The notes beneath the pieces were generated by a model that saw nothing but the letters and a program-made list of their open reading frames with translations, searched no databases and was not told the origin of the DNA. A DNA stretch of 42,451 bases from an uncultured Opitutaceae bacterium (GTDB lineage: Bacteria > Verrucomicrobiota > Verrucomicrobiia > Opitutales > Opitutaceae). The position numbers were made by a program, and so were the translations under genes. Below are positions 1,653-17,700 of the stretch, piece after piece. Position 1 is the stretch's first letter. Each line of letters starts with the position of its first letter. The stretch lies in the NCBI GenBank assembly GCA_903891325.1, contig CAITEC010000126.1, positions 1 through 42,451 on the forward strand, read 5' to 3'.

Positions 1653-1680
1653 CTCAGGTTTCAGGTCTCAGGTTTCAGGT
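1653..1680. repeat. Four tandem 7-nt repeats (YTCAGGT) at a gene 3' end
   Basis: The heptamers CTCAGGT, TTCAGGT, CTCAGGT and TTCAGGT follow each other without gaps, equal to two perfect 14-nt units (1653-1666 and 1667-1680). The repeat runs into the end of the small-subunit gene, and on the minus strand it supplies that gene's TGA stop codon (1675-1677). Its function is unknown. Confidence 0.85.
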
Positions 1681-2478
1681 TTCTGCAGGTTTTGCCTTTT
1701 CCTTCAGCCGGCCCAAAAGCCGGAGCAGTCCGTCGAGAATAGTGAGCGGGTGGGGGGGCCAGCCCGGGATGAACAGATCGACGGGCAGCGTTGATGGCAC
1801 GCCATCCTTCACCTCGGGGTGGCCGGCAAACGGCCCGCCGGAGATCGCCCCGGCGCCGACCGCGATGACAATCTTTGGCTCCGGCATGGCCTCCCAGGTC
1901 TTCCGCAATGCCAGTTCCATGTTTTGCGTCACCGGACCGGTGATGACGAGGCCATCGGCATGGCGGGGCGACGCCACAAATTGGATTCCGAAACGCCCCA
2001 GGTCCCAGCCGATGGTGCTGAGCACGTTCAGCTCAGCCTCGTCCGAGCCGTCCCCGCCGGCGCTGACCTGGCGCAACTTTAGGGATCGGCCAAGGAGCTG
2101 GCGCAGGCCCGCATCGAGCGGCTCGGCCAGCCGGACCTCCTCCTTGCCCGGTTCACCGAGGATCAGGTCCTCCCGGCGGCGGACCGCCATGCGATGGTCG
2201 CCGGTCTGGGTGATGGCGTCGTGGGGACACGCGGCCACGCACTCCGCACAAAACAGGCATCGCCCGAGATCGAGCGTGATGCCCTGCCCGGCCCGCGGCG
2301 TTATCGCCTGCGTCGGGCACACGGCGACGCAGGCGTGGCAATCGTCCGGGCATTTGCCGGATTCGACGCGCAAGGCGCCCCCATGCCGGTCCGGCAGGGC
2401 CGGCGCCGGGCCACGGGGATAGGCCATCGTTTCCCGGCCGCGCTTGAGACGATGGACAATGGTATCGAGAACAAACAT
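1675..2478 (-). CDS. Ehr-type complex: ferredoxin fused to a NuoB/HyfI-like small subunit lacking cluster ligands
   Basis: This 267-residue protein joins two parts that are separate genes in Hyf/Hyc systems. Residues about 40-90 form a two-cluster ferredoxin domain (HyfH-like) with cysteines 43, 47, 50, 54 and 74, 77, 80, 84. The second motif has the normal CxxCxxCxxxCP spacing; the first has one extra residue (CPDDC). Residues about 130-260 are a HyfI/HycG/NuoB-like domain (FVASPRHADGLVITGPVT, PKIVIAVG). In that fold four cysteines hold the proximal [4Fe-4S] cluster. Here the aligned positions are Asp143, Asp146, Gly210 and Trp240, and the domain has no cysteine at all. It should therefore carry no proximal cluster. 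It is the last gene of the operon, 6 nt after the large-subunit gene. The family is clear, but the reaction is unknown. Confidence 0.85.
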   Translation of the reverse strand: MFVLDTIVHRLKRGRETMAYPRGPAPALPDRHGGALRVESGKCPDDCHACVAVCPTQAITPRAGQGITLDLGRCLFCAECVAACPHDAITQTGDHRMAVRRREDLILGEPGKEEVRLAEPLDAGLRQLLGRSLKLRQVSAGGDGSDEAELNVLSTIGWDLGRFGIQFVASPRHADGLVITGPVTQNMELALRKTWEAMPEPKIVIAVGAGAISGGPFAGHPEVKDGVPSTLPVDLFIPGWPPHPLTILDGLLRLLGRLKEKAKPAET

Positions 2479-2484
2479 GGCGGG

Positions 2485-3966
2485 TCAGAGATCGAAGCCG
2501 CAGTAGGACAGGTTAAAGCTCTTGTTGCAGATCGGAAAATCCGAAATGGCCTGCCCGCGCAGCGCGAGGGCGACTCCGATCCAGTTGTGGAACGAGGGAT
2601 CCACGACCTTGTAGCGACGGAAGCGGCCGGCCGCGTCGCTGAGCGCCACATGGCACACCTCTCCCCGCCATCCCTCGACCAGCGCCACCGCGAGCGTGTC
2701 CGGCTGAGCGTCCGCCGCGCTGCCGTGCATCGCGCCGTCCGGCGCCGCCGGCAGCTGCTCGCGCAGCAGCTGACCCGCACGCTGCACTTCCAGCCAGCGC
2801 ACCCGCGCCCGGGCGAAGACATCGCCACCGGGCCATACCGCGACCGGCATGGGCGCGAGCCGATACCATCCGGCCGGATGGTCGTAGCGCACGTCCCGCA
2901 CCAGTCCGCACGCCCGCGCGGCCGGCCCCACCAGGCCGAGTTCCGTGGCCTGCTGGGCAAAAACGGTGCCGGTGCCTTCAAAACGCGCGCGAACGGAGGC
3001 GGCATCCCACAGCCAAGCCGTCGCCTGTTCCACCTCGGCCAGCGCGGTCTCCAACCGGCTTGTCATCCAGGCCAGGCGCTCCGGCTCGAGGTCAAAGCGG
3101 CACCCGCCGGGTCGGACCAGCCCCCGGCCAAACCGGTTCCCGCACAGGAGGGCCGTGAGGTTGAGGAAATCGCCCCGGATTTTTCCGCAGGCGGAGGCGG
3201 TGGGCAGAAACGCCACGTCGTTGGCCAGCGCACCCAGGTCGCCCGTGTGATTGGCCAGGCGCTCAAGCTCAAGGGCGATGACCCGCAGCCACTGCGCCCT
3301 GAGCGGCGCCTCCGTGCCGGCGAGCGCTTCCCGCACGGCCGCGTGCGCCGTCGCGTGGCCGATGGTGGTGTCGCCCGCCACGGTTTCCATCTGACTCGCG
3401 GTGACACGGTGGGGTCCGCCGACCAGGGCCGCCTCGATGCCGCGATGCTGGTAGCCGAGCCCGATCTCGAGGTGAATCACCTCCTCGCCGGCGCACTGAA
3501 AGCGGAAATGTCCCGGCTCGATGATCCCGGCGTGCACCGGCCCGACGGCAACCTCGTGGACTTCGCGACCGTCGACGCGGAAGAAATCCCGCAGCGCCGG
3601 GGCGCCGCCGAGGGACTGGCGGACGGGCTTGAGCCAGGGATGCCCCTCCGGGCGCAGCGCGTGCTGCTCCCAGAGCTCACGCTCAAACAGGTGCGCCTGG
3701 GCGTGGGTCGCCGTGAGCGAGGGATAGGCCCCCCGGGCCGGGGTGCTGCGCCCCACGGCCAGGGTGTTGTCGGCGTCGAACGCGATCACCGCGACGACCC
3801 GGGTGTCCCCTCCCTCCGGAACCCCGAACCACGCGCAAAGCCGCGCGCCCCGATCCAATTCCGCCGCCGTCCGGCGCACGAATTCCGCCAGCGGCCACTC
3901 GGGCACGTCCGCCCAGCGGACGCTGGTGGCATTGGCGAGCAGGGCAAAGGGTGAGTCCGAGCTCAT
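2485..3966 (-). CDS. Ehr-type complex: NuoCD/HyfG-like large subunit lacking [NiFe] ligands
   Basis: The 493-residue protein has an N-terminal NuoC-like part (about 1-110) and a NuoD/HycE-like part (about 110-493), as in HyfG/HycE. Recognisable stretches are GPVHAGIIEPGHFRF, LGYQHRGIE and the C-terminal DFPICNKSFNLSYCGFDL. In true group 4 hydrogenases an N-terminal CGIC-type pair and a C-terminal DPCxxC pair bind nickel and iron. Here the first site reads VAGDTTIGH (Ala197, Thr200), as in complex I NuoD, and the C-terminal site reads NLSYCG (Ser487, Gly490), with one cysteine at 489 that is out of register. No [NiFe] centre is therefore expected. The ATG at 3966 overlaps the TGA of the preceding gene (ATGA). 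The protein should sit on the cytoplasmic arm of the complex with the ferredoxin/small subunit; its substrate is unknown. Confidence 0.87.
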   Translation of the reverse strand: MSSDSPFALLANATSVRWADVPEWPLAEFVRRTAAELDRGARLCAWFGVPEGGDTRVVAVIAFDADNTLAVGRSTPARGAYPSLTATHAQAHLFERELWEQHALRPEGHPWLKPVRQSLGGAPALRDFFRVDGREVHEVAVGPVHAGIIEPGHFRFQCAGEEVIHLEIGLGYQHRGIEAALVGGPHRVTASQMETVAGDTTIGHATAHAAVREALAGTEAPLRAQWLRVIALELERLANHTGDLGALANDVAFLPTASACGKIRGDFLNLTALLCGNRFGRGLVRPGGCRFDLEPERLAWMTSRLETALAEVEQATAWLWDAASVRARFEGTGTVFAQQATELGLVGPAARACGLVRDVRYDHPAGWYRLAPMPVAVWPGGDVFARARVRWLEVQRAGQLLREQLPAAPDGAMHGSAADAQPDTLAVALVEGWRGEVCHVALSDAAGRFRRYKVVDPSFHNWIGVALALRGQAISDFPICNKSFNLSYCGFDL

Positions 3967-5408
3967 GAGGCGGGGAAGAGCTGCCGGACGGCCGCCGTCC
4001 ACGCGTCGCGCAGCACGGGCGGCGTCGCCAGTCCGAGCCAGAGTGAAAATCCCAGCAAAATCAGCGGCGGCAGGATGACCCCGGCGGTTTCGCGCACCCG
4101 CTTCCCCTCGAGCCGGGCCGCCCCCGGGCGCGGCCGGCCGTCCACGATGGCAAACACGAGGCGGGTCAGCCCGAAAAACACCAGGAGGAGGCCGCCAAGC
4201 AGCAGGGTGGCGGCGACTCCGTGCCCCGTCCCGATCGCCGCCCGCAGGATGCGCAGTTCGCTGAAGAACGGTCCAAACGGGGGGCAGGCGGTGACGGCGA
4301 ACATGCCGGCCACAAAGATCGTCGCGGAGCGGGGTGTCACCGCCGTCATCCCGCTTACCTCATCGACGGTCCGCGCCCCGGCCGCCCGGCGAATATTGCC
4401 GGCGCTCAGAAACAGGGACCCCTTGGTCAGGCTGTTGCTCCATACGTGAAACAGGGCGGCCCAGGTCCCGGCGGGGCCAAAACCCGCGCCGATGACCAGG
4501 ATGCCCATGTGCTCGACGCTCGAATAGGCGAGCATCCGCTTGAAGTCCCTCGTGGCGAGGAGGAGCAGCGCCGCCACGATCATGGAAAACAAACCGATGG
4601 CGAGCAGCGTGCGGCCCGCCATGGCTCCCGCGCCGGCGGCGTCGACCACGGCTCGAACCCTGAGGATTGCGGTGAAGGCCACGGTGGTCACCCCCCCCGC
4701 CAGGATGGCGCCCACGATTCCCGGCGCCTCGCCGTAGGCGTCGGGCTTCCAGGTGTGCATCGGGGCGAGGCCCATCTTGGTGCCGTAACCGACGAGCAGG
4801 AGCACCCACGCAATCAGGACCCAGGGACGGGAGAGCGCCACCCCCTGCGCCGCCAGCGCCGCGAACGTCAGGTCGCCCGAGCCCCCGCCGCGGAGCGAGG
4901 CGTAGCCCAGGCAGAAGGAGCCCAGCAGGGACAGGCCAATCCCCGTCCCGCCGATAAGCAGGTACTTCCAGGTTGCCTCGAAGGCGCGCGGCGTGCCGTT
5001 GAAATGCAGCAGGGGCACGGCGGCCAGCGTCACGGCTTCCGTCGTGATCCACAGGAGCCCGAGATGCCGGGCCTGGTGACCGGCGCTCAATAGGCCGAGT
5101 ATCGCCAGCAGCGCCGCAACGAACACCCGGTTGGGGCGCTCCGTCCGGATGCGGAGGTAGGACACGCCGTAAACCGAGCAGGCCAGAAACAGCAACGACA
5201 CCGCCGGAAGGACGGATCGGGCGAGGGGGTCGAAGGCGAGCCAGGCGGTCGGCGAGACCGCGGGCGGGTCCACCAGCATCCAAAAGACCAGGAAGGTGTG
5301 ACCGGCGGCGAACACCGGCAGGAGCCAGGGTCGCGTTCGTTCGCTCGGCCAGATCACCGCCAGCAGCGCTCCCGCCAGCGGCGCGAAGACTAGGAGAAGT
5401 TCCTTCAT
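3963..5408 (-). CDS. Ehr-type complex: HyfF/NuoN-like proton-conducting membrane subunit
   Basis: A 481-residue, strongly hydrophobic protein of about 13-14 predicted helices belongs to the antiporter-like (proton_antipo_M) family and is closest in look to HyfF. The charged residues expected within the membrane channel are present: Glu124 in a helix ending WITTEAVTL, Lys148, and Lys211 in GYGTKMGLAPMHTWKPDAYG, followed by DFKRMLAYSSVEHMG. These suggest a working proton or sodium path. Its ATG overlaps the stop of the HyfE-like gene and its stop overlaps the start of the large-subunit gene, so translation is coupled. The ion moved is not determined by the sequence. Confidence 0.87.
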   Translation of the reverse strand: MKELLLVFAPLAGALLAVIWPSERTRPWLLPVFAAGHTFLVFWMLVDPPAVSPTAWLAFDPLARSVLPAVSLLFLACSVYGVSYLRIRTERPNRVFVAALLAILGLLSAGHQARHLGLLWITTEAVTLAAVPLLHFNGTPRAFEATWKYLLIGGTGIGLSLLGSFCLGYASLRGGGSGDLTFAALAAQGVALSRPWVLIAWVLLLVGYGTKMGLAPMHTWKPDAYGEAPGIVGAILAGGVTTVAFTAILRVRAVVDAAGAGAMAGRTLLAIGLFSMIVAALLLLATRDFKRMLAYSSVEHMGILVIGAGFGPAGTWAALFHVWSNSLTKGSLFLSAGNIRRAAGARTVDEVSGMTAVTPRSATIFVAGMFAVTACPPFGPFFSELRILRAAIGTGHGVAATLLLGGLLLVFFGLTRLVFAIVDGRPRPGAARLEGKRVRETAGVILPPLILLGFSLWLGLATPPVLRDAWTAAVRQLFPAS

Positions 5409-6046
5409 TCGCGGAGCACGGTGAGTTTGCGGGTGTCGAGCGAATCGAACGCGCGCTGAATGCGGTCAACGATGATGCCGATGACGAACACCGCCCCGAC
5501 GAGGTCGAGCAGAATGCCCGACTCGACCAGCAGCGGCGTCGAGGTGATGAGCAGCATGCCAAAAAGGTAGATGCCGTTCTCCATGATGAGAAACCCGCAG
5601 ACCTGGGAGATCGCCTTCACCCGGCCGACCAGCAGGATGAATCCGGTGAGGATCGAGGCCAGGGCGCCGGGAACCACGAGTGTGCTGGCGTGGGCGGGGA
5701 GCAGGGGCAGCGACCGGGCGGCCGCCACCGCCGCGATCGTCCCGAAGGCGCCCAGCAGCAACGAGGGCACGAAGCCGATGAAGGGCTCGACTTCGCGGTC
5801 GATATTGGCCGTGCGCATGGCGCGGCGAAGCAGCGTCGGAATCGCCAAGCCCTTCATCACCACCGTCGCGAGCGCGACCAGGCCGACCCGCCAGCCGAAT
5901 GCCGGCTCGATCACCAGGGGAAGCAGGCCGAGAATCACGCCCTGCGCCGCCATCGTGCGGATGATCGAGGGCAGCCGGCTGCTGCCCAGCGCCAGCAGAT
6001 TCAGCCCCATGGCCAGCCCAATCAGGAGGTTCAAGGTCTGGTTCAT
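5405..6046 (-). CDS. Ehr-type complex: HyfE-like small membrane subunit
   Basis: A 213-residue membrane protein with about seven predicted helices. The pattern QVCGFLIMENGIYLFG in the second half, and the order HyfC-HyfE-HyfF in the operon, identify it as HyfE-like. HyfE proteins are thought to combine regions corresponding to the small complex I subunits NuoK and NuoJ; that relation comes from family knowledge. The start chosen is the ATG at 6046, which overlaps the stop of the HyfC-like gene. A longer in-frame start at 6088 would lie inside that gene and adds a poor N-terminus. Confidence 0.82.
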   Translation of the reverse strand: MNQTLNLLIGLAMGLNLLALGSSRLPSIIRTMAAQGVILGLLPLVIEPAFGWRVGLVALATVVMKGLAIPTLLRRAMRTANIDREVEPFIGFVPSLLLGAFGTIAAVAAARSLPLLPAHASTLVVPGALASILTGFILLVGRVKAISQVCGFLIMENGIYLFGMLLITSTPLLVESGILLDLVGAVFVIGIIVDRIQRAFDSLDTRKLTVLRE

Positions 6047-6951
6047 TGCGCGCCGCCCTTCCACGCCAGCAGCAGGGCAAACAGGCAAAGCAGGAATGCC
6101 GTGGTGAGCAGCAGCGGGACGCGGCGGAAGGCGAGGCGCGCCAGCAGCGACTCGACGAGCCCGACGCCGACCGTGACGGCTCCGACCGCACCGATCAGCG
6201 CGGCGGTTGACGCCACCGGCGACAACCGGCTCATCGGCAGCACCGCTTCGCTGAGCAGCACGGCAAAGAGCAGAAACTTCACCGCCGCGCCGTGCAGCAC
6301 CACCGCGAGCGGCGGACCGCTGTGATCGAGCACCATGGCCTCGTGAATCATGGTCAACTCCAGGTGGGTGTTCGGATCGTCAAAGGGAACCCGGCAGTTT
6401 TCCGCCAGCAGCACCGTGAAAAGGCCGGCCCCGAGCAGCACCGCGCCCGCGCCCGAGGAATGCAGCAGCATCGTGTCAAGGACCACGCTGCTGCTCTGCA
6501 CGCTGAGGGACAGGATCGCGGTGATCAGGGCGGCCTCGCTCAACACCGCATAACTCACTTCGCGGGCGGCGCCCATGCCCTCGAAGGCGGACCCGGTTTC
6601 CAACGCCGCCCACGTCGTGGCAAAGCGCGCGACGGCCAGCAGGTAGATGAGCAACAGCATGTCCCCGTCGAAACTCAGGGCGCCGCGAGCCGGACCGAGG
6701 GGCACCAGCAGGACTGCGCCCACCACGGCAACCCAGGCAACGGCCGGGCCGGCGACAAAGCCGGGGGAGGCCAGCGTGCTCAGCACCACGCTTTTCCGCC
6801 AGAGGCGGCCGAGGTCGAAGTAAAGCTGGAGCACCGGCGGTCCGCGGCGCCCCGCCACCCACGCCTTCACCCGGTTGATGACTCCCGGCAGCAGCGGGGC
6901 CAGCAGGAGCCAAAGGGCCAGGCGGGGAACGAATTCCAGGATCGAGATCAT
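6043..6951 (-). CDS. Ehr-type complex: HyfC/NuoH-like membrane subunit
   Basis: The 302-residue protein is a NuoH/HyfC-type subunit with about eight helices. It links the redox arm to the antiporter-like arm in this superfamily. Signature stretches are GSAFEGMGAARE (residues 120-131), AENCRVPFDDPNTHLELT (183-200) and MIHEAMVLDHSG, whose buried acidic residues are conserved in the family. The ATG at 6951 overlaps the TGA of the antiporter gene before it. The full set of charged residues suggests that coupling to ion translocation is retained although the metal sites of the soluble subunits are lost. Confidence 0.88.
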   Translation of the reverse strand: MISILEFVPRLALWLLLAPLLPGVINRVKAWVAGRRGPPVLQLYFDLGRLWRKSVVLSTLASPGFVAGPAVAWVAVVGAVLLVPLGPARGALSFDGDMLLLIYLLAVARFATTWAALETGSAFEGMGAAREVSYAVLSEAALITAILSLSVQSSSVVLDTMLLHSSGAGAVLLGAGLFTVLLAENCRVPFDDPNTHLELTMIHEAMVLDHSGPPLAVVLHGAAVKFLLFAVLLSEAVLPMSRLSPVASTAALIGAVGAVTVGVGLVESLLARLAFRRVPLLLTTAFLLCLFALLLAWKGGAQ

Positions 6952-8894
6952 TTCACCCCCTCCAACATCACGAGAATCGCCAGGCCGGCGAGGCCGGCGG
7001 CAATGTACACGATGTAGAATTGCAGCCGGCCGTGCTGCAGCTGGCGCGCCAATCGCGACAGGCGCAGCACGGTGCCGCCGGCCGGAGCGATGATCCGCTC
7101 CAGCACCGTCTCCGGCACCCGTTCGATCCGGCTGGCCCGCTCCGGGAACGGCCCGCGCGGCCGGCGTTGCGTCCGCTCCGGCAGCATGATCCACGCAAGC
7201 CAACCCGTCGCGGTGGCCGCGAAGGAGCCCCCGGTGTATTGCATCCGCGGCGTCGGAGTTGAGTAGCCGCCGTCCCAGGTCAGCGCGCGGCGCAACCCTG
7301 TGGCGTGCACCCGGCGCCAGAGCAGGATGCTGGCGGCCAGGAAGAGCGCGGCGAGGGCACAGTGTGCCAGGCCCAGCGTCAGGAGGGGCGCCGGCGGTTC
7401 CGCGCCGGCCCACGCGGGATTCCAGGAGCCGACGGCGCGGGCCAGCAGGGGCCACGCGAGGCCGGGCAAAAGCCCGATCGCCAGGCAACCGCCGGCCAGC
7501 ACGCCCATGGGTGCGCGCATGAGCCAGCCCGATTCATGGGCCGCCTCCGCCGCCTGGGTGCGCGGGGCGCCGAGGAAGATGACTGCGCCCGCCTTGAGAA
7601 AGCTCGCCAGCGCCAGGGCACCGGCCACCGCCAGCGCGATGACCGCGGGCAGTGCGATCCAGGCGGACGGGCTGTGGCTCGTCGCGGTCCGGATCAAACC
7701 GAGATAGATCAGCCATTCGCTGACAAATCCATTGAGCGGTGGCAGTCCGGAAATCGCCGCCGCCCCCACGACAAACATCGCCGCCGTCCAGGGCATCGCC
7801 CGCCAGAGCCCGCCGAGCCGGCTCATTTCCCGCGTCCCCGTGGCGTGCAGCACCGAGCCGGCCCCGAAAAACAGCAGCGACTTGAACCAACCGTGATTCC
7901 AAACATGGAGCAACGCGCCCGCGAGCAGGAGCCGGCCCCAGAGCGCGTTGCCCTGGGCTGCGGCGAGCAGCGCCCCGCCGACGCCGATCGCGATGATCCC
8001 GACGTTCTCGACGGAGCAGTAGGCCAGCAGCCGCTTGAGATCGTTTTGCGCGAAGGCAAATGCGATGCCGAGCAGGGCGGTGAGGGCCCCGACGCCCATC
8101 ATCGCCCAGCCCGCGGCGGCCGGTACCGGCAGCCAGCCGCCAAAGCGGATCAGCCCATAGACCCCCATCTTGATGGCCACCCCCGACATCAGGGCGGATA
8201 CGTGGCTCGGGGCGCTGGCGTGAGCCGATGGCAGCCAGATGTGCAGGGGAAACAAGCCGGCCTTCACGGCAAACCCGGCGAACGCCAGCCAGAACAGCGG
8301 CCCCAGATTCGCGTGATCGCGCATGGGACCGAGCTCCCAGCTCCCGGTGCGGCTCGCGAGCCCCGCGAAAAATGCGAAGAGGCAGAGCGTGCCCGCGTGG
8401 GAAGCCGCCAGGTAGAGCCAGCCGGCCGCGCGCACGTCGCGCCGCGCCCGGTCCAGGGTGATCAGGAAATAGCCGCTGACGGCAAAAAGCTCCCAGGCGA
8501 TGAGAAAGTGCAGTCCATTGGAGGACAGGAGCACGCCCCCCATGCTCAGGATGATTGCGCACCACCACCGCCGGCCCCGGGGAGCGGATGCGGCCTGCTG
8601 CTCGTCGGACCAATAGCCGCGGGAGTAAATTGCGCCCAGCCCGCCCACCGTGCCCAGCAGGGCCAAAAAGAGGGCGCTGACTCCGTCCAGCCGCAGGTGC
8701 AGGGCCTCGCCGCCGACCGGAAATGCGCTCCGCCACTCCCAGTCGACCCCGCCGGCCAGGCCGACCAGCGCCGCGGCGACGGTCGCACCGGCTCCGGCCA
8801 CGGTAAGCGCCAGCCACACGCGGGACTGCCGTCCGAGCGCGATGCCCCCGGCCAGTGTGACCAGGGCAAAAAGCAGAAGGGAGGCGATGCTCAC
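6948..8894 (-). CDS. Ehr-type complex: HyfB/NuoL-like antiporter subunit, second copy
   Basis: This 648-residue proton-conducting transporter family protein is a close paralogue of the one encoded at 9624-11573; the two share long near-identical stretches such as SSNGLHFLIAWE, PLHIWLPSAHASAPSH, SGLPPLNGFVSEWL and a shared C-terminal pattern beginning LQHGR. The channel residues Glu135 and Lys211 are in place. A GTG at 8894 is used, overlapping the TGA of the EIIA gene, and the stop overlaps the HyfC-like gene. Having two such subunits next to each other suggests either more ions moved per cycle or alternative assemblies. It probably arose by tandem duplication. Confidence 0.87.
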   Translation of the reverse strand: MSIASLLLFALVTLAGGIALGRQSRVWLALTVAGAGATVAAALVGLAGGVDWEWRSAFPVGGEALHLRLDGVSALFLALLGTVGGLGAIYSRGYWSDEQQAASAPRGRRWWCAIILSMGGVLLSSNGLHFLIAWELFAVSGYFLITLDRARRDVRAAGWLYLAASHAGTLCLFAFFAGLASRTGSWELGPMRDHANLGPLFWLAFAGFAVKAGLFPLHIWLPSAHASAPSHVSALMSGVAIKMGVYGLIRFGGWLPVPAAAGWAMMGVGALTALLGIAFAFAQNDLKRLLAYCSVENVGIIAIGVGGALLAAAQGNALWGRLLLAGALLHVWNHGWFKSLLFFGAGSVLHATGTREMSRLGGLWRAMPWTAAMFVVGAAAISGLPPLNGFVSEWLIYLGLIRTATSHSPSAWIALPAVIALAVAGALALASFLKAGAVIFLGAPRTQAAEAAHESGWLMRAPMGVLAGGCLAIGLLPGLAWPLLARAVGSWNPAWAGAEPPAPLLTLGLAHCALAALFLAASILLWRRVHATGLRRALTWDGGYSTPTPRMQYTGGSFAATATGWLAWIMLPERTQRRPRGPFPERASRIERVPETVLERIIAPAGGTVLRLSRLARQLQHGRLQFYIVYIAAGLAGLAILVMLEGVK

Positions 8895-9598
8895 GCGGGT
8901 TTATCTCCGGCGACGCCGCCAGTGCCCAGTTTGTCGGCCGCCGCTATCGCCCGATAAATGTCCTCGTCGGGAGCCCGGCCGATGATCAGCTCCCGCAGGG
9001 GCCCGCGGGCGAGAAGGCGGCAGATGCGGCCCTCCAGGTCGAGATGCGCCCGGGGCGAGGGCGCCACGAAGAAAAACAGCTGCCGGATCGGAACGGCATC
9101 CGGCATGGGCTCGGCCACGGCCAGCGCCTCGCTCAAAAGCAGGAGGCCAAGCGTGCCGGAGTCGCGTCCCAGCGCGACGCGGGCCCGAAGATGCGGCAGG
9201 GCGAAACCGCCGCCAATGGGTGCGAAGGTCAGGCCATCGCGGCCGTTCAGCCGCCCGGCCAGCAGTTGCCGGATCGCAGGCGTGGCGCCCGGCAGGGAGG
9301 CGACCATTGGCCCGAGCACCGCCAGGACTCCGGCGGCGGGCACGTCGCGCCAGATGCCGCCGGTGCGCAGGAGAGGCTCCAGGTGCCAGCCGGTGGCGAA
9401 GACCGCGGACTCGGGGGAGAGAAACCCCACTTTCGCCGCCAGCCCCCTGCCTTCGGCCCAATGGGCCACCTGGGCCCGATCAAACAAAAGCCGGCCGCGG
9501 TCGCTCGTATGGGGCAGACTTTCGTTGCGCGTCCAGTCCTCCACCATCCGCTCCGAGACTCCGAACGACTCGGCTATCTGAGTTAGATTTAGATACAT
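8891..9598 (-). CDS. HTH-PTS EIIA domain protein inside the Ehr operon
   Basis: The 235-residue protein starts with a MerR/excisionase-like DNA-binding or docking region (about 1-50: MYLNLTQIAESFGVSERMVEDW, then an arginine-containing turn and an AQVAHW helix). A linker follows, then a PTS EIIA domain of the fructose/mannitol/PtsN class (about 60-225). GGGFALPH places the phospho-accepting histidine at 136, and the second active-site histidine fits His185 in AHLDLEG. Such domains take phosphate from HPr-type proteins. No EIIB or EIIC is nearby, so transport is unlikely and regulation more likely. The start is the ATG at 9598; the reading frame stays open up to 9730, but that would overlap the antiporter gene. 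Its place between two antiporter genes, with a 4-nt overlap to the second, ties it to the complex. Whether it binds DNA or the complex is not shown. Confidence 0.8.
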   Translation of the reverse strand: MYLNLTQIAESFGVSERMVEDWTRNESLPHTSDRGRLLFDRAQVAHWAEGRGLAAKVGFLSPESAVFATGWHLEPLLRTGGIWRDVPAAGVLAVLGPMVASLPGATPAIRQLLAGRLNGRDGLTFAPIGGGFALPHLRARVALGRDSGTLGLLLLSEALAVAEPMPDAVPIRQLFFFVAPSPRAHLDLEGRICRLLARGPLRELIIGRAPDEDIYRAIAAADKLGTGGVAGDKPA

Positions 9599-9623
9599 GG
9601 TGTCCGGGTTTCCTTCCGCCGGC

Positions 9624-11573
9624 TCATGGCGCGCCGCCCCACAGAGCCAAGCCGCCCAGGACCATGAGGCCGGCGACGACGTAAAGAAGGTAGGCCTGCA
9701 CCCGCCCATGCTGCAGGCGGCGCGCGCCATCGGCCGCTTTCAGAGTGGCTTTGCCGGCCGGCACGAACAGGCACTCCAGCACCGTTTCCGGCATTTCCTC
9801 CTCGAAGTCGGCGCGGGCGGGGAAGGTTTCCACGGGCCGGCGTCCCTGCCGCTGCGGGCGCAGAATCCACGCGAACCAGTCGGTGATGATGCCCGCGAAG
9901 GAGCCCGCCGTGTACTGCATCCGGGCCGTCGGCGCGGCGTAGCCGCAGTCCCAGGTCAACGCGCGACGCACTCCCGTCTGCCGGGTCCGCCGCCAAAGCA
10001 GGAATACCGCCGTCACCGCCGCCACCGCCAGGACCGCATTGCAGGCGCCGAGGATGCCCAGGGATGGCGGCGCACCCAGGGCGCCCCAGGCCGGATTCCA
10101 CGCCGATGCCGCGCGAGCCACGGCCGGCCAGAACAAGCCGGGCATCAATCCGATCATGAGGCACGCCACCGCCAGCACGAGCATCGGAGTGCGCATCAAC
10201 GGGCCGCTTTCGCGGGCCCGCTCGGCGGCCGGTGTGCGCGGGGCGCCGAGGAAGACGACTCCGCAGGCCTTGACGAAACAGGCCAGGGCCAGCGCGCCCG
10301 TCGCCGCCAGCAGCACCGTGGCGGCAACTGCCACGAGCGCCGGATTGCCGCGGGAGCCCACCGCGCCGAACAGGCCGAGATAGACGAGCCACTCGCTGAC
10401 GAAGCCATTGAGCGGCGGCAGTCCGGAGATGGCCGCCGCACCCAGGGCGAACAGCCCCGCAGTCCAGGGCATGTGCCGCCACAGGCCGCCCAGCCGGCTC
10501 ATTTCCCGGGTGTGGGTGGCGTGCAGCACCGAGCCGGCGCCGAGGAAAAGCAGTGACTTGAAAAGCCCGTGATTCCAAACGTGCAGCAGGCCGCCGGCCA
10601 GGGCGATCCAGCCCCAGGCGGCGTTGCCGTGCTCCCGGGCGATCAGGGCAAATCCGAATCCAATGAGGATGATCCCGATGTTCTCGACGCTGTGGTAGGC
10701 GAGCAGCCGTTTCAAGTCATGCTGGCCGAGGGCAAACGCCACGCCCAGGACGGCGCTGGCGACTCCGAGCGAGGCGACGACCCAGCCCGCTTCCGCGGGA
10801 ACCGGGAGCCAGCCGGTGAAACGCACGAGCCCGTAGATGCCCAGCTTGATCGTCACGCCGGACATGAGGGCCGACACGTGGCTGGGGGCGCTGGCGTGCG
10901 CCGATGGGAGCCAGATGTGCAGCGGAAACAGGCCGGCCTTCGTGCCAAAGGCGGCGAGCGCGAGCCAGAAAAGCGGCGCCAGCTGCGTTTGTCCGCGCAT
11001 GGGACCGAGGTCCCAGCTTCCCGTGTGCGCCGCCAGAATGGCGAAATAGGCAAAGAGGCAGAGCGTGGCGGCATGGGAAACGCCGAGATACAGCCAGCCT
11101 GCCGCCCGGGCCTCGCTCTGCTGGCGATCAAGCGTGATGAGAAAATAGCTGGCGACGGCAAAAATCTCCCAGGCGATCAGAAAATGGAGCCCATTGGATG
11201 AAATCAGCACCAAGCCGATCGCCGCCAGCAAGGCGCTCCACCACACCCGGCCCGAGCGGGCGGAGCGCGGATGCGCACGGTCGCCCCAATACTCGCGGGA
11301 GTAGACCGTCGCCAGACCGCCCACCACCCCAAGCAAGGCGACAAACAATGCGCTGATGCTGTCCAGGCGGAAGTGAAGGCGTTCGCCGCCCAAGACCATG
11401 TTTCCCCGCCAGTCCCAGTCCCCGGCGCCGAGCAGGACGCGGACGGCGGCGCCCAGCGCGGAACCCATGCCCAAGAGGGTGGCGGCCAGCCACAGCCGCG
11501 GCGCCGCGCGGCCGCCGACCATTGCGATCACCAGTCCCAGCCCGGAGATGATCAACAGCGGAGCGACATTCAT
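9624..11573 (-). CDS. Ehr-type complex: HyfB/NuoL-like antiporter subunit, first copy
   Basis: First gene of the operon, 649 residues, with about 15 predicted helices. It belongs to the proton_antipo_M family and resembles HyfB. Glu136 (HFLIAWEIFAV) and Lys212 (FGTKAGLFPLHIW) fit the channel residues of NuoL-type subunits, and the second-half segment FAFALGQ-like/DLKRLLAYHSVENIG is present. The ATG at 11573 was preferred over an in-frame TTG two codons upstream because it matches the hydrophobic N-terminus of the paralogue. The paralogue follows after the EIIA gene. DabB-type bicarbonate-uptake subunits belong to the same superfamily, but no DabA gene is present here. Confidence 0.87.
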   Translation of the reverse strand: MNVAPLLIISGLGLVIAMVGGRAAPRLWLAATLLGMGSALGAAVRVLLGAGDWDWRGNMVLGGERLHFRLDSISALFVALLGVVGGLATVYSREYWGDRAHPRSARSGRVWWSALLAAIGLVLISSNGLHFLIAWEIFAVASYFLITLDRQQSEARAAGWLYLGVSHAATLCLFAYFAILAAHTGSWDLGPMRGQTQLAPLFWLALAAFGTKAGLFPLHIWLPSAHASAPSHVSALMSGVTIKLGIYGLVRFTGWLPVPAEAGWVVASLGVASAVLGVAFALGQHDLKRLLAYHSVENIGIILIGFGFALIAREHGNAAWGWIALAGGLLHVWNHGLFKSLLFLGAGSVLHATHTREMSRLGGLWRHMPWTAGLFALGAAAISGLPPLNGFVSEWLVYLGLFGAVGSRGNPALVAVAATVLLAATGALALACFVKACGVVFLGAPRTPAAERARESGPLMRTPMLVLAVACLMIGLMPGLFWPAVARAASAWNPAWGALGAPPSLGILGACNAVLAVAAVTAVFLLWRRTRQTGVRRALTWDCGYAAPTARMQYTAGSFAGIITDWFAWILRPQRQGRRPVETFPARADFEEEMPETVLECLFVPAGKATLKAADGARRLQHGRVQAYLLYVVAGLMVLGGLALWGGAP

Positions 11574-14294: not shown

Positions 14295-14723
14295 ATGAGT
14301 GCAGCCGATCCCAAGCGCGAGGGCGCCGCGAGCCAGGCAAGGTGGCCCATCCTGCTCGTCGATGACGAGCAGACGCTGCTGGACGTTTTTCAGGCCGCGC
14401 TCGAACCCTATTTCGAGGTCACGACGGCCACGTCCACCCGCGACGCGGAGGCGATCCTGCAGGGCAGGCAGTTTCACGTGGTGGTCGCCGACCACCTCAT
14501 GCCCGGCGGCAACGGGATGAATTTCCTGGTCCGCGCCCGCGAGGAATACCCGCACATGCAGCGCATCCTCGTGACCGGGTACATGAAGCCGGAGATGCTC
14601 CTGCGCAGCGTCAACGAGGCCGCGCTTTTCCGCTACCTGCTCAAGCCCGTCGCGATCGCGGAGCTGATCAAGGTCGTGCAGGACGCGGTCAAGGCGCATG
14701 ATCTGAGCGTGGCGGCCCTTTGA
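14295..14723 (+). CDS. Stand-alone response-regulator receiver protein
   Basis: The 142-residue product is a single CheY-like receiver domain. It has the acidic pair Asp23-Asp24 in LLVDDEQ, the phospho-accepting Asp66 (VVVADHLMPGG), Thr94 in LVTGY and Lys117 in YLLKP, so it should be phosphorylatable. There is no output domain. The LVTGY...KPEMLLRSVNEAALFRYLLKP pattern is typical of receivers related to RpfG/HD-GYP regulators, which suggests a single-domain relay or a partner found elsewhere. No histidine kinase is encoded in the window. Its last 35 nt overlap the 3' end of the convergent uvrA gene. Confidence 0.9.
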   Translation: MSAADPKREGAASQARWPILLVDDEQTLLDVFQAALEPYFEVTTATSTRDAEAILQGRQFHVVVADHLMPGGNGMNFLVRAREEYPHMQRILVTGYMKPEMLLRSVNEAALFRYLLKPVAIAELIKVVQDAVKAHDLSVAAL

Positions 14724-17700
14724 GCCTCTTTCTAAGATAGGGGGCGGTGGGGCTACCCTTGGTCCGAAGCAGGCCGGCCAGATCCCCCGAGTAGAGCAGC
14801 CTGCCGCCATCAGGGCCGCCCCCGGGCCCCAGCTCGATGATCGCGTCGGCCTCGGCGAGTAGGTCGAGGTGGTGCTCGATCACGACGACGGTGTGGCCCT
14901 GGTCCACCAGCGAGTGCAGGACCCGGATCAGCTTTTCGCAGTCGCTCAGGTGCAGGCCGATCGTCGGCTCCTCGAGCAGGTAGAGGTTCCGCGGGGATTC
15001 GCCGCCGGGCCTGCCGCCCGGCGCTGCGATGCCGCGGGACAGCTCCGTGACCAGCTTCAGCCTCTGGGCCTCGCCGCCGGAAAGGGTGGGGGAGCTCTGG
15101 CCAAGGGCGAGGTAGCCGAGCCCGCAGTCGACCATCAGCTTGCACACGGCCGCCAGCCGCGAATGAAAGTCGAAGAACTCCGCCGCCTCCTCAAAGGTGA
15201 GCTGCAGCACCTCGCCAACGGACTTTCCCTTCCAGACCACGTCGTCGAGCTCCGGGGCGTAGCGGCGGCCCCGGCAGTCGTCGCAGGGCAGGTAGGTGTC
15301 CGGCATGAACGCCATCTCCAGCCGGATCCTTCCGCCGCCTTCGCAGGTCGGGCAGCGGCCGCCGGCGACGTTGAACGAAAACCGGGAGGCGGTGTAGCCG
15401 CGGAGCCGCGCCTCGGGCAGCGCGGCGAAGAAGTCCCGGATCAGGTTGAAGATCCCGAGGTAGGTCGCCGGCGTCGAGCGGGGCGTCTTGCCGATCGGGG
15501 ACTGGTCCACCTCGATCACGGAGCCAAAGCGGGCGCCGAGCCGCAGTTCCGAGAACGGGGGCCGGGGGCGGCCCCCGGGCGGCGCAAGTTCGTCCGATGC
15601 AAAATCGGCAAGGCGGACAAACTCCGCGCCCGTGAGCCGGGTCTTGCGTCGCTTCGCGGCGCAGGCGACCGCCGGGACCAGGAGGTCGCGGAACAGCGTC
15701 GACTTTCCCGCCCCGCTCGGGCCGGCGACCATCACCAGTCGTCCGATCGGCAGCGTCAGGTCAAATCCGCGCAGGTTGCGGAAGGAGGCTCCCTTCAGCT
15801 CCAGCGCGGGCGCGGCGCGGCCCTTGCTCCCGCCGGCAGCGGAAAGCGGCCGGTAGCTTCCCCGCAGCGGGTGCGGGATTCCCCTTTCCATGAAGAGGCC
15901 GGTCAGGGAGCGCGCGTTTCGCCGGATCTCGGCGGGCGTGCCGTCGGCGAGCACCTCCCCGCCATGGATCCCGGCCCCCGGACCGAGGTCGATGATCCGG
16001 TCGGCCGCGGCCATGACCTCCTCGTCGTGCTCGACCACCAGCAGCGTGTTCCCCCGCGAGCGCAGCTCCAGGAGCGTCTCGATCAGGCGCTCATTGTCCC
16101 GCGCATGCAGGCCGATGCTCGGCTCGTCGAGGACGTAGAGGACGCCGGAAAGGTTCGACCCGAGCTGGGCGGCAAGCCGGATCCGCTGGGCCTCCCCCCC
16201 GGACAGCGTCTCCGTGGGGCGGTCGAGTGAGAGATAGCCCAGTCCGACCCGCTTGAGGAAGCGCAGGCGCTCCTCGATCTGCGGCAGCACGTCGCGGGCG
16301 ACAAGGCGTCCCCGCGCGTCCAGGGCGAGCCGCCGCAGGCGCTCCGAAATGGAGGCGGGCGGCAGGCCGAGCAGTTCGGGGAGGGAAAGCGGGGCCCCGG
16401 TGCGAAACGGGAGTTTCACGGCCCGCGCCATCCGGTTGAGCCGGGTGCCCTGGCAGCTCGGGCAGGGGCTCGAGTGGCGCTCGCGGACCGTGGAAAGGAT
16501 GTCCTTGTCGAGGTCCGCGATCTCCGGGGGCAACTCCTCGTCGGGATCCGGCTCGAGCATCCAGTCGAATATCCGCCCGTAGCCCCGGCACGCCGGGCAC
16601 CAGCCGCGCGGCGAGTTGAACGAGAAGTGCTTCGGATCGAGCTCCGGGAAGGACTCGCCGGTCTCCGCGTCCGTGCGCGTGCTCGAGAACCACGAGATGA
16701 CCGCCCCCGCGGGCCCGGCAAGGAAGCAGGAGCCGTTGCCCAGGCGCAGGGCCGCTTCCAGGGCCTTCGCGGCGGGCGGGGCCCCTTCCGCCTTCAGGTC
16801 GGCGACGACCACCTCGATGTCGTGCTCCTTGTAGCGGTCGAGCTTCCTGAAGGCGTCAACCCGGACCATCTTCCCGTCGACGCGCATGAGCGCGTGGCCC
16901 TGGGCCGCGATCCAGGTCGCGATCGGCTGGTGGTGGCCCTTGCGGCCCCGGATCAGGGGGGCGCACAGGTAGAGGTGCCGGGCGCGGGCGGCCGGCGGCC
17001 GGGCAATCACGCGGGCCAGCAGCCTCCTGAGCTCGGGGGCCGAGAGGGGGATCACCGGCCGGCCCGTGTCGGGGTGGTGCTGGATCCCGAGCCGGGCGTA
17101 GAGCAGCCGGAGGTACTGGGCGACCTCGGTGATCGTCGCGACGGTGGACTTGCGCGAGCCGCGGGTCACGCGCTGCTCGATCGCCACGGTGGGCGCGATC
17201 CCGGTGAGCCGGTCGATCGCCGGCCGGGGCATCTGCTCGACGAATTGCCGCGCGTAGGCGGACATGGACTCCATGAAGCGGCGCTGTCCCTCCGCAAAGA
17301 TGATGTCGAAGGCGAGCGTCGACTTGCCGGAGCCGGAGACGCCGGTGACGACCGTCAGCGCCCCGTGGGCGACCCGGATCGAGATGTTCTTCAGGTTGTT
17401 CTCGCGGGCTCCCGTCAGGACGAGCCCCTCCGGCTCCGGCGGGGCCAGGGCCGCCGGAGCGGCGCGCGACCCGCGACCGGCCCGAACGCCCGCATCGGGA
17501 CCCTTGCCGAATTCCAGGGCCTCCCGCAGGAAGGGTGCGGTGACGGCCGCGGACCGGGCCACCTCGGCCGGCGTTCCGGCCGCGACCACCCGTCCCCCGC
17601 CGGCGCCGGCCTCGGGGCCCACCTCGATGATCCAGTCCGCGCACTTCAGGACGTCGAGGTTGTGCTCGACGACAACGACGCTGTGGCCGCGCGCGACCAG

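Follow-up and report, generated by a model that had tools for sequence, protein, structure and literature searches.

Ehr complexes, such as that encoded by Geobacter ehrABCDLS, combine a HycE/NuoD-like large subunit that lacks the [NiFe] cysteines with membrane subunits of the NuoL, HyfC, HyfE and HyfF types, and in the accessible parts of two papers their function is stated as unknown (PMC10284858; PMC10432482). Here we analyse an Ehr operon in a stretch of 42,451 nucleotides (hereafter the window, meaning that whole stretch) from an uncultured Opitutaceae bacterium (assembly GCA_903891325.1, contig CAITEC010000126.1), in which the small subunit retains none of the four cysteines of the proximal [4Fe-4S] cluster. 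This loss, together with the loss of other links of the electron wire in relatives, suggests that electrons may not be what drives the complex.

That Ehr complexes exist and lack [NiFe] ligands is already known, and the original prediction of an Ehr-type complex, made from the sequence alone, agrees with what we find: a large subunit that is group-4-like but has no [NiFe] CxxC pairs, and NuoL/HyfB-, HyfC-, HyfE- and HyfF-type membrane subunits encoded in the same operon. Among the best 80 of 573 stretches from a genome scan, Geobacter and Geomonas loci have 54-55% large-subunit identity to the window, but the small subunits read from Geobacter-type relatives keep the proximal-cluster cysteines. 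Literature searches showed no mention of proximal-cluster loss with a tryptophan, of modular loss of ferredoxin clusters or of a link to EIIA; mention in the founding papers is possible (Coppi 2005; Marreiros 2013).

The best or second-best solved homologues are Escherichia coli formate hydrogenlyase (FHL; 7z0s), representing the group 4 [NiFe] hydrogenases, and the Pyrococcus membrane-bound hydrogenase (MBH; 6cfw), with homology covering the soluble, NuoL-like and HyfC-like subunits of the window. Group 4 enzymes carry four Ni-Fe cysteines, none of which is present here, and the window complex differs further in lacking the proximal cluster and in having two NuoL-like subunits and one HyfF-like subunit, against a single antiporter-like subunit in FHL. 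Respiratory complex I (NuoB, NuoD, NuoI) is homologous in its small subunit, in its ferredoxin-like subunit and in the membrane arm, but the N2 ligands of NuoB are missing from the window small subunit, evidence for a quinone site is absent, and no NADH module (NuoE/F/G) was found among the operon genes in Pfam and NCBIfam scans of the operon, the rest of the genome not having been searched for this complex. The antiporter subunits are also homologous to those of the Mrp Na+/H+ antiporters (7qru, 6z16, 7d3u). Mrp systems, encoded by MrpA-G operons, are not known to have a soluble redox-type arm, whereas the window complex has one, comprising the large and small subunits, and it is under selection.

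Loss of the proximal cluster

The small subunit (P0001; 1675..2478, minus strand) is a ferredoxin domain with two [4Fe-4S] motifs fused to a NuoB-like domain. All eight of its cysteines (43, 47, 50, 54, 74, 77, 80 and 84) are ferredoxin ligands, and the NuoB-like domain contains none. In HMMER alignments, D143/D146, G210 and W240 fall on the proximal-cluster cysteines of MbhJ (6cfw_J) and HycG (7z0s_G), and no other cysteine stands at these ligand positions, which bears out the original prediction that exactly these four ligands are gone and all eight ferredoxin cysteines kept. The fold is nevertheless predicted to be intact: an AlphaFold2 model built from an alignment of 98 of 105 small subunits reached a predicted local distance difference test score (pLDDT) of 93.8 and a predicted template modelling score (pTM) of 0.90 (a single-sequence prediction with a pLDDT of 36.7 was discarded), and its best Foldseek matches are HycG 7z0s_G and MbhJ 6cfw_J.

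Proximal-cluster loss is rare, unlike the loss of [NiFe] ligands. The ligands are incomplete in 11 of 154 small subunits, the window counted among them, while 143 carry all four cysteines (CCCC), which is the usual, if not formally defined, state of Ehr relatives. The same loss in ten more small subunits, each from a different genome than the window's, shows that no sequencing error is behind it. At positions 143/146/210/240, the 11 sequences without a full ligand set (hereafter losers, the others being keepers) read DDGW in the window, DDAW in L036, DACW in L037, CACW in L038, CESW in L039, SEEW in L049 and L058, DVCW in L055, DADW in L134, NEDW in L136 and NEEW in L066. Position 146 is never cysteine in losers (D, A, E or V), whereas 143 (D, S, N or C) and 210 (G, A, C, S, E or D) are still cysteine in a few. 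Tryptophan at position 240, found in 11/11 losers and 0/139 keepers (a count that excludes one gap and four rows of a distant Ehr type, here called type B), is the sole fixed change among them.

The frequency of acidic residues at this site (DD, EE, ED) could point to a new metal or cofactor held by Asp or Glu, the new centre that the original prediction had allowed for. With sets such as DVCW, DADW, DACW, CACW and DDGW offering few or different candidates, the losers have no ligand set in common; their residues at 143, 146 and 210 are unrelated and only Trp240 is constant. We therefore reject a new metal site as a shared feature of the losers and regard a new centre here as extremely improbable.

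Alternatively, the complex might take in, within the cell, another small subunit whose cluster is intact. A second, type-B Ehr large subunit is indeed encoded in loser genomes G006, G015 and G167, and the type-B small subunit keeps its proximal cysteines in G006 (locus L050) and G015 (L049). Against such borrowing, a single Ehr large subunit (E <= 1e-60) was found in loser genomes G000, G002, G003, G009, G139, G159 and G249, though these assemblies are incomplete. The window genome (140 contigs, 94.7% complete) has five PF01058 genes, of which the other four lie in two Nuo-type loci, one HoxFUYH-like locus and one group-1-like hydrogenase locus, the last two assigned from translated frames rather than by a family search. 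The Nuo-type loci have small- and large-subunit homologues close together, and the group-1-like locus adjoins a HypE-like frame. A second small-subunit gene for the complex, the finding that would have overturned the original prediction, was thus not found in this assembly, and we consider a borrowed subunit very unlikely.

The counts given here come from a biased sample and are not frequencies in nature. Besides the best 80 stretches of the genome scan, rows were added from the window's family (an Ehr-type large subunit at E <= 1e-60 is present in 43 of its 252 genomes), from one phylum of a notable relative (22 of 249 genomes) and from a scan with a DNA pattern that requires Cys or Trp at position 240. 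Among the best 80 stretches, the named relatives closest to the window are metagenome-assembled genomes (MAGs) of Opitutaceae and further Verrucomicrobiota, with some entered under other phyla. Left out were 13 complex-I-type rows (L001, L002, L025-L035), short loci that repeat longer ones (L007-L023 except L018), rows that were cut off (L126, L162, L191) or cut off or with runs of N (L238, L249), a duplicate of L131 (L235), rows without a small-subunit match (L086, L094, L124) and the frameshifted L060/L144; repeats were merged.

The losers comprise ten Opitutaceae-type rows and one Planctomycetales MAG, L066 (about 58% identity). With the ligand columns removed, the ten form one clade both in a small-subunit tree (101 rows) and in a concatenated tree (48 rows), in each with a Shimodaira-Hasegawa-like approximate likelihood ratio test (SH-aLRT) value of 94, not starred in either, and L066 is placed away from them. 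A single origin of all eleven is rejected by the approximately unbiased (AU) test on the concatenated data (p_AU 7.4e-7), from which it follows, as far as these trees can tell, that the cluster was lost at least twice, both times ending in tryptophan. On the large subunit, the AU test does not reject one loser clade (p_AU 0.398 for the nine rows included), and a tree of the NuoB domain alone, built from few columns, gives three changes for the proximal cluster. Several losses inside the Opitutaceae type, which we also considered, are not upheld by the small-subunit and concatenated trees and are not required by the AU test.

An exact-pattern scan of 343 Planctomycetota and 337 Verrucomicrobiota genomes, which other spellings of the site would escape, brought no Trp variants beyond the known losers. 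The TGB pattern matched in 57/343 and 102/337 genomes, respectively; all 24 Trp-type matches listed outside the known losers (7 in existing loci and 17 new) were examined, and none has small-subunit homology. L163 proved to be the same gene as L066.

The large subunit and the former [NiFe] site

In the large subunit (P0002, NuoC/D-like and HycE-like; 2485..3966, minus strand; HycE match 5.5e-40), A209/T212 fall on the N-terminal CxxC of HycE (7z0s_E) and MbhL (6cfw_L), and S499 falls on the first C-terminal [NiFe] cysteine of HycE. G502 is placed at the fourth by ungapped continuation, the HMMER alignment ending at Y500. These are the Ala197/Thr200 and Ser487/Gly490 from which the loss of all four [NiFe] cysteines had been predicted, numbered there from Met13 and so lower by 12. 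The loss is a family-wide trait, with no cysteine at the four positions in 106 of 107 aligned large subunits (the one extra row is a fragment).

What stands in place of the ligands is strongly conserved: G210, D211 and H216 near the N-terminal pair, and P490, N493, K494, S495, L498, S499, Y500, G502 and D504 near the C-terminal one, are invariant in 107/107 large subunits. The former [NiFe] site has been rebuilt as another conserved, polar pocket rather than left to drift. C501, one position off a [NiFe] ligand, is cysteine in 104 of 108 large subunits (serine or alanine in four), and with a conserved cysteine so near, the alignment leaves some slight room for a shift by one residue at one of the C-terminal ligands.

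A further cysteine near the site, C492, is present in 100 of 107 relatives; both C492 and C501 are replaced in type-B and a few other sequences.

Ferredoxin clusters

All eight ferredoxin cysteines are present in 11/11 losers (in L049 the motif is complete despite a long insert). This retention, and purifying selection on the ferredoxin domain, would suit a complex driven by redox chemistry at that domain, with a soluble donor and acceptor meeting at its two clusters and their redox state moving the arm and channels. Relatives with the opposite pattern speak against such a drive. In a Gemmatimonadota clade (L131, L236, L237, L239-L248, L250 and L251; operon completeness seen for L131 only), each of the 15 rows counted lacks some or all ligands of cluster II, and 14 of them also have an incomplete set for cluster I (L244 keeps all four), while the large subunit and the four proximal cysteines stay. 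Another 20 rows, spread over several phyla, have an incomplete ligand set for cluster I only, and in several of these all or nearly all four ligands are gone together. We accordingly judge a ferredoxin-driven complex unlikely.

In total, cluster II is incomplete in 15 and cluster I in 34 of the 154 small subunits (the motif expression was unfit for 9 of 155 rows; these and the cluster-state lists were classed by eye), and a tree built from few columns gives one change for cluster II and 13 for cluster I. No row of the 154 lacks both the proximal cluster and a ferredoxin cluster. No single cluster of the wire is thus universal in the sample, whereas the large-subunit pocket is.

Selection and operon integrity

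Losers are under purifying selection as are their cluster-keeping relatives. Median dN/dS is 0.144 in losers and 0.175 in keepers for the ferredoxin part, 0.116 and 0.154 for the NuoB-like part and 0.164 and 0.165 for the large subunit, rough values from pairwise comparisons of 9 of the 10 Opitutaceae-type losers and 17 of 30 keepers picked by hand, with synonymous sites far diverged. The operon is complete, with two NuoL-like genes, in five of the ten loser relatives (L036, L037, L039, L058 and L066); one NuoL-like gene was seen in L038, the loci L055, L134 and L136 are cut stretches, and in L049 a second Ehr cluster is inserted within the operon.

These observations bear on whether the operon is simply decaying. 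The loss of cofactors would fit decay, the Geobacter Ehr has been called non-functional in the accessible part of one paper (PMC13194489), the small subunit of L060/L144 is frameshifted and the large subunit of loser genome G249 contains one in-frame TGA. Yet dN/dS is 0.12-0.16 across losers, the window reading frames are intact and the channel residues are conserved, so a non-functional operon has, in our view, little probability.

Function could also differ between lineages, the keepers being redox enzymes with a non-hydrogen substrate at the pocket and the window clade a non-redox device on the same scaffold. All three clusters are kept in 108 of 154 small subunits, and an invariant pocket fits a catalytic site. 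Such a functional shift predicts some loser-specific change in the pocket or elsewhere in the large subunit, but in a column-by-column comparison none was found in the large or HyfF-like subunit, and elsewhere in the membrane arm and in the HTH-EIIA protein (below) such columns are few, scattered, weak and absent from L066. A division of this kind seems to us rather improbable.

Type B, with about 38% large-subunit identity, forms a second, distant Ehr cluster beside or near the first (L049 and L061; genomes G015, G167 and G150); its small subunit keeps the proximal cysteines in L049 and L061. In L060, which is the same as L144 (genome G208), the small-subunit frame seems broken just after RQVSAGG, through an assembly error or as a pseudogene.

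The membrane arm

Two tandem NuoL/HyfB-like antiporter-type subunits are encoded on the minus strand at 9624..11573 (NuoL1; Pfam Proton_antipo_M 8e-49, HycC 7z0s_C 7.5e-59, and NCBIfam hydrogenase 4 subunit B 4e-161, under the curated cut-off) and at 6948..8894 (NuoL2; Proton_antipo_M 3e-43). On the same strand follow a HyfC/HycD/NuoH-like subunit (6043..6954; Pfam NADHdh 2e-22, HycD 7z0s_D 5.5e-14), a HyfE-like subunit (5405..6046; NCBIfam PRK11492, hydrogenase 4 membrane subunit, 3.4e-22, under the curated cut-off, with no Pfam match) and a HyfF/NuoN-like antiporter-type subunit (3963..5408; Proton_antipo_M 7.5e-45, and NCBIfam hydrogenase 4 subunit F 1.7e-72, under the curated cut-off).

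The original prediction that the charged channel residues are kept holds for all of these subunits in which such residues were listed, save at one position. Counting residues conserved at 90% or more, NuoL1 has E138 and K214 at 100% and K245 at 94% (85 homologues), NuoL2 has E135 and K211 at 100%, K242 at 95% and K434 at 90% (81 homologues), the HyfF-like subunit has E124 at 99% and K211 at 100%, and HyfC has E140, E199 and E205 at 100% (93 homologues for each of the last two). The exception is in the HyfF-like subunit. Where solved homologues have a lysine that we assign, after the naming of helices in complex I, to transmembrane helix 8, all 93 sequences carry N, T, S or V instead.

An EIIA-like protein within the operon

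Between the two NuoL-like genes lies a gene (8891..9598, minus strand, with an ATG start at 9598) for a helix-turn-helix (HTH) protein with an EIIANtr (PtsN)-like domain. The window protein itself matches HTH_17 (7e-7) and, below the Pfam cut-off, PTS_EIIA_2 (0.002); it is the family profile that identifies the EIIA fold, matching PtsN 4gqx at 3.7e-26 with H136 on the AIPH histidine, presumably the phosphorylation site. His136 is invariant in 20 aligned sequences and in every further row displayed. The protein thus resembles PtsN in having an EIIA domain with an aligned phosphorylatable histidine, but differs in its N-terminal HTH_17 domain and its place within an Ehr operon.

Homologues were found in 55 of 93 loci searched, and in 35 of 58 with at least 8 kb upstream, by tblastn at about 25% identity, which may miss some; they span many phyla and lie mostly upstream of or between NuoL-like genes. 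The window genome has one gene for HPr and one for an EI N-domain protein of the phosphotransferase system (PTS). EIIANtr acts on potassium transport in other bacteria. Expression or activity of the complex is probably tied to PTS phosphorylation through this protein, a putative PTS-linked control element of which the accessible Ehr literature makes no mention.

Proposed mechanism

We tentatively favor, at somewhat less than even probability, that the window encodes an ion-translocating relative of complex I for which electrons entering the large subunit are not the driving force. In FHL, according to the part of the structural paper available, relay clusters are spaced under 14 Å and the proximal cluster occupies the N2 position (PMC9474812). 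Without that cluster, the distance between the pocket and the last ferredoxin cluster should exceed the tunnelling limit of about 14 Å. Were that so, the shared work of the family would not be electron delivery into the pocket. The expectation in the original prediction that electrons should stop at the ferredoxin clusters fits with both former metal sites being gone; what it had overlooked are the different spread of the two losses, the rebuilt pocket and the HTH-EIIA gene between the NuoL-like genes. Its further suggestion, a possible drive other than hydrogen, quinone or formate, is strengthened by the relatives that lost ferredoxin clusters instead.

In the mechanism we envisage, the pocket, with its invariant D, H, N, K, S, Y and D, would bind a proton, an ion or a small molecule and transmit its conformational change to the membrane arm in the manner of complex I; the complex might then act as a gated transporter or exchanger of H+, Na+ or K+. 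The remaining clusters could be structural or report redox state. Since the same pocket persists whichever end of the wire a member has lost, pocket-gated ion movement would best explain a common function. In the accessible part of one genome paper, Ehr is listed with other systems that may serve pH homeostasis, in keeping with a role in moving ions (PMC6688271).

Several points weigh against this proposal. Each of the 154 small subunits retains at least one cluster, and all but 46 retain the full three, a pattern hard to understand if redox played no part; function may also differ between lineages. The filling of the former cluster pocket by Trp240, and the distances invoked above, are suppositions. 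L150 and V178, which at first seemed loser-specific and which we considered as packing changes compensating for the lost cluster, also occur in two keepers and were dropped, and trees of the large subunit alone scatter the losers (5 and 4 changes). In the accessible parts of the literature, the Ehr subunits of Geobacter sulfurreducens showed higher abundance on formate than under conditions that included hydrogen, and a link to formate was suggested by the authors (PMC7894505); complexes of formate dehydrogenase with Ehr have been inferred from gene content in other lineages (PMC6349859); and we found no report there of an activity for any Ehr.

A broader version of the proposal, fairly doubtful at present, is that a whole branch of the complex I superfamily is not run by electrons but consists of ligand- or proton-gated, PTS-controlled ion transporters in which every link of the ancestral iron-sulphur wire is dispensable in some lineage and a tryptophan has twice replaced an N2-type cluster. 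The way in which complex I links redox chemistry to ion movement has long been in question, and relatives that keep pocket and channels but lack the N2-type or ferredoxin clusters are natural tests of whether the membrane arm can work when no electrons enter the large subunit. The losses also narrow the possible function of the widespread and unexplained Ehr complexes.

Operon layout and surroundings

The intact Ehr operon consists of eight consecutive genes on the minus strand in the order NuoL-like, HTH-EIIA, NuoL-like, HyfC, HyfE, HyfF-like, large subunit, and fused ferredoxin and small subunit. It is flanked upstream by an enolase gene and downstream by a methyltransferase gene on the opposite strand; no conserved linkage of enolase to Ehr was found in the available flanks of relatives. 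Elsewhere in the window, positions 14689-20397 encode a UvrA-like protein with several ATPase segments, whose 1902 amino acids are unusually long for UvrA.

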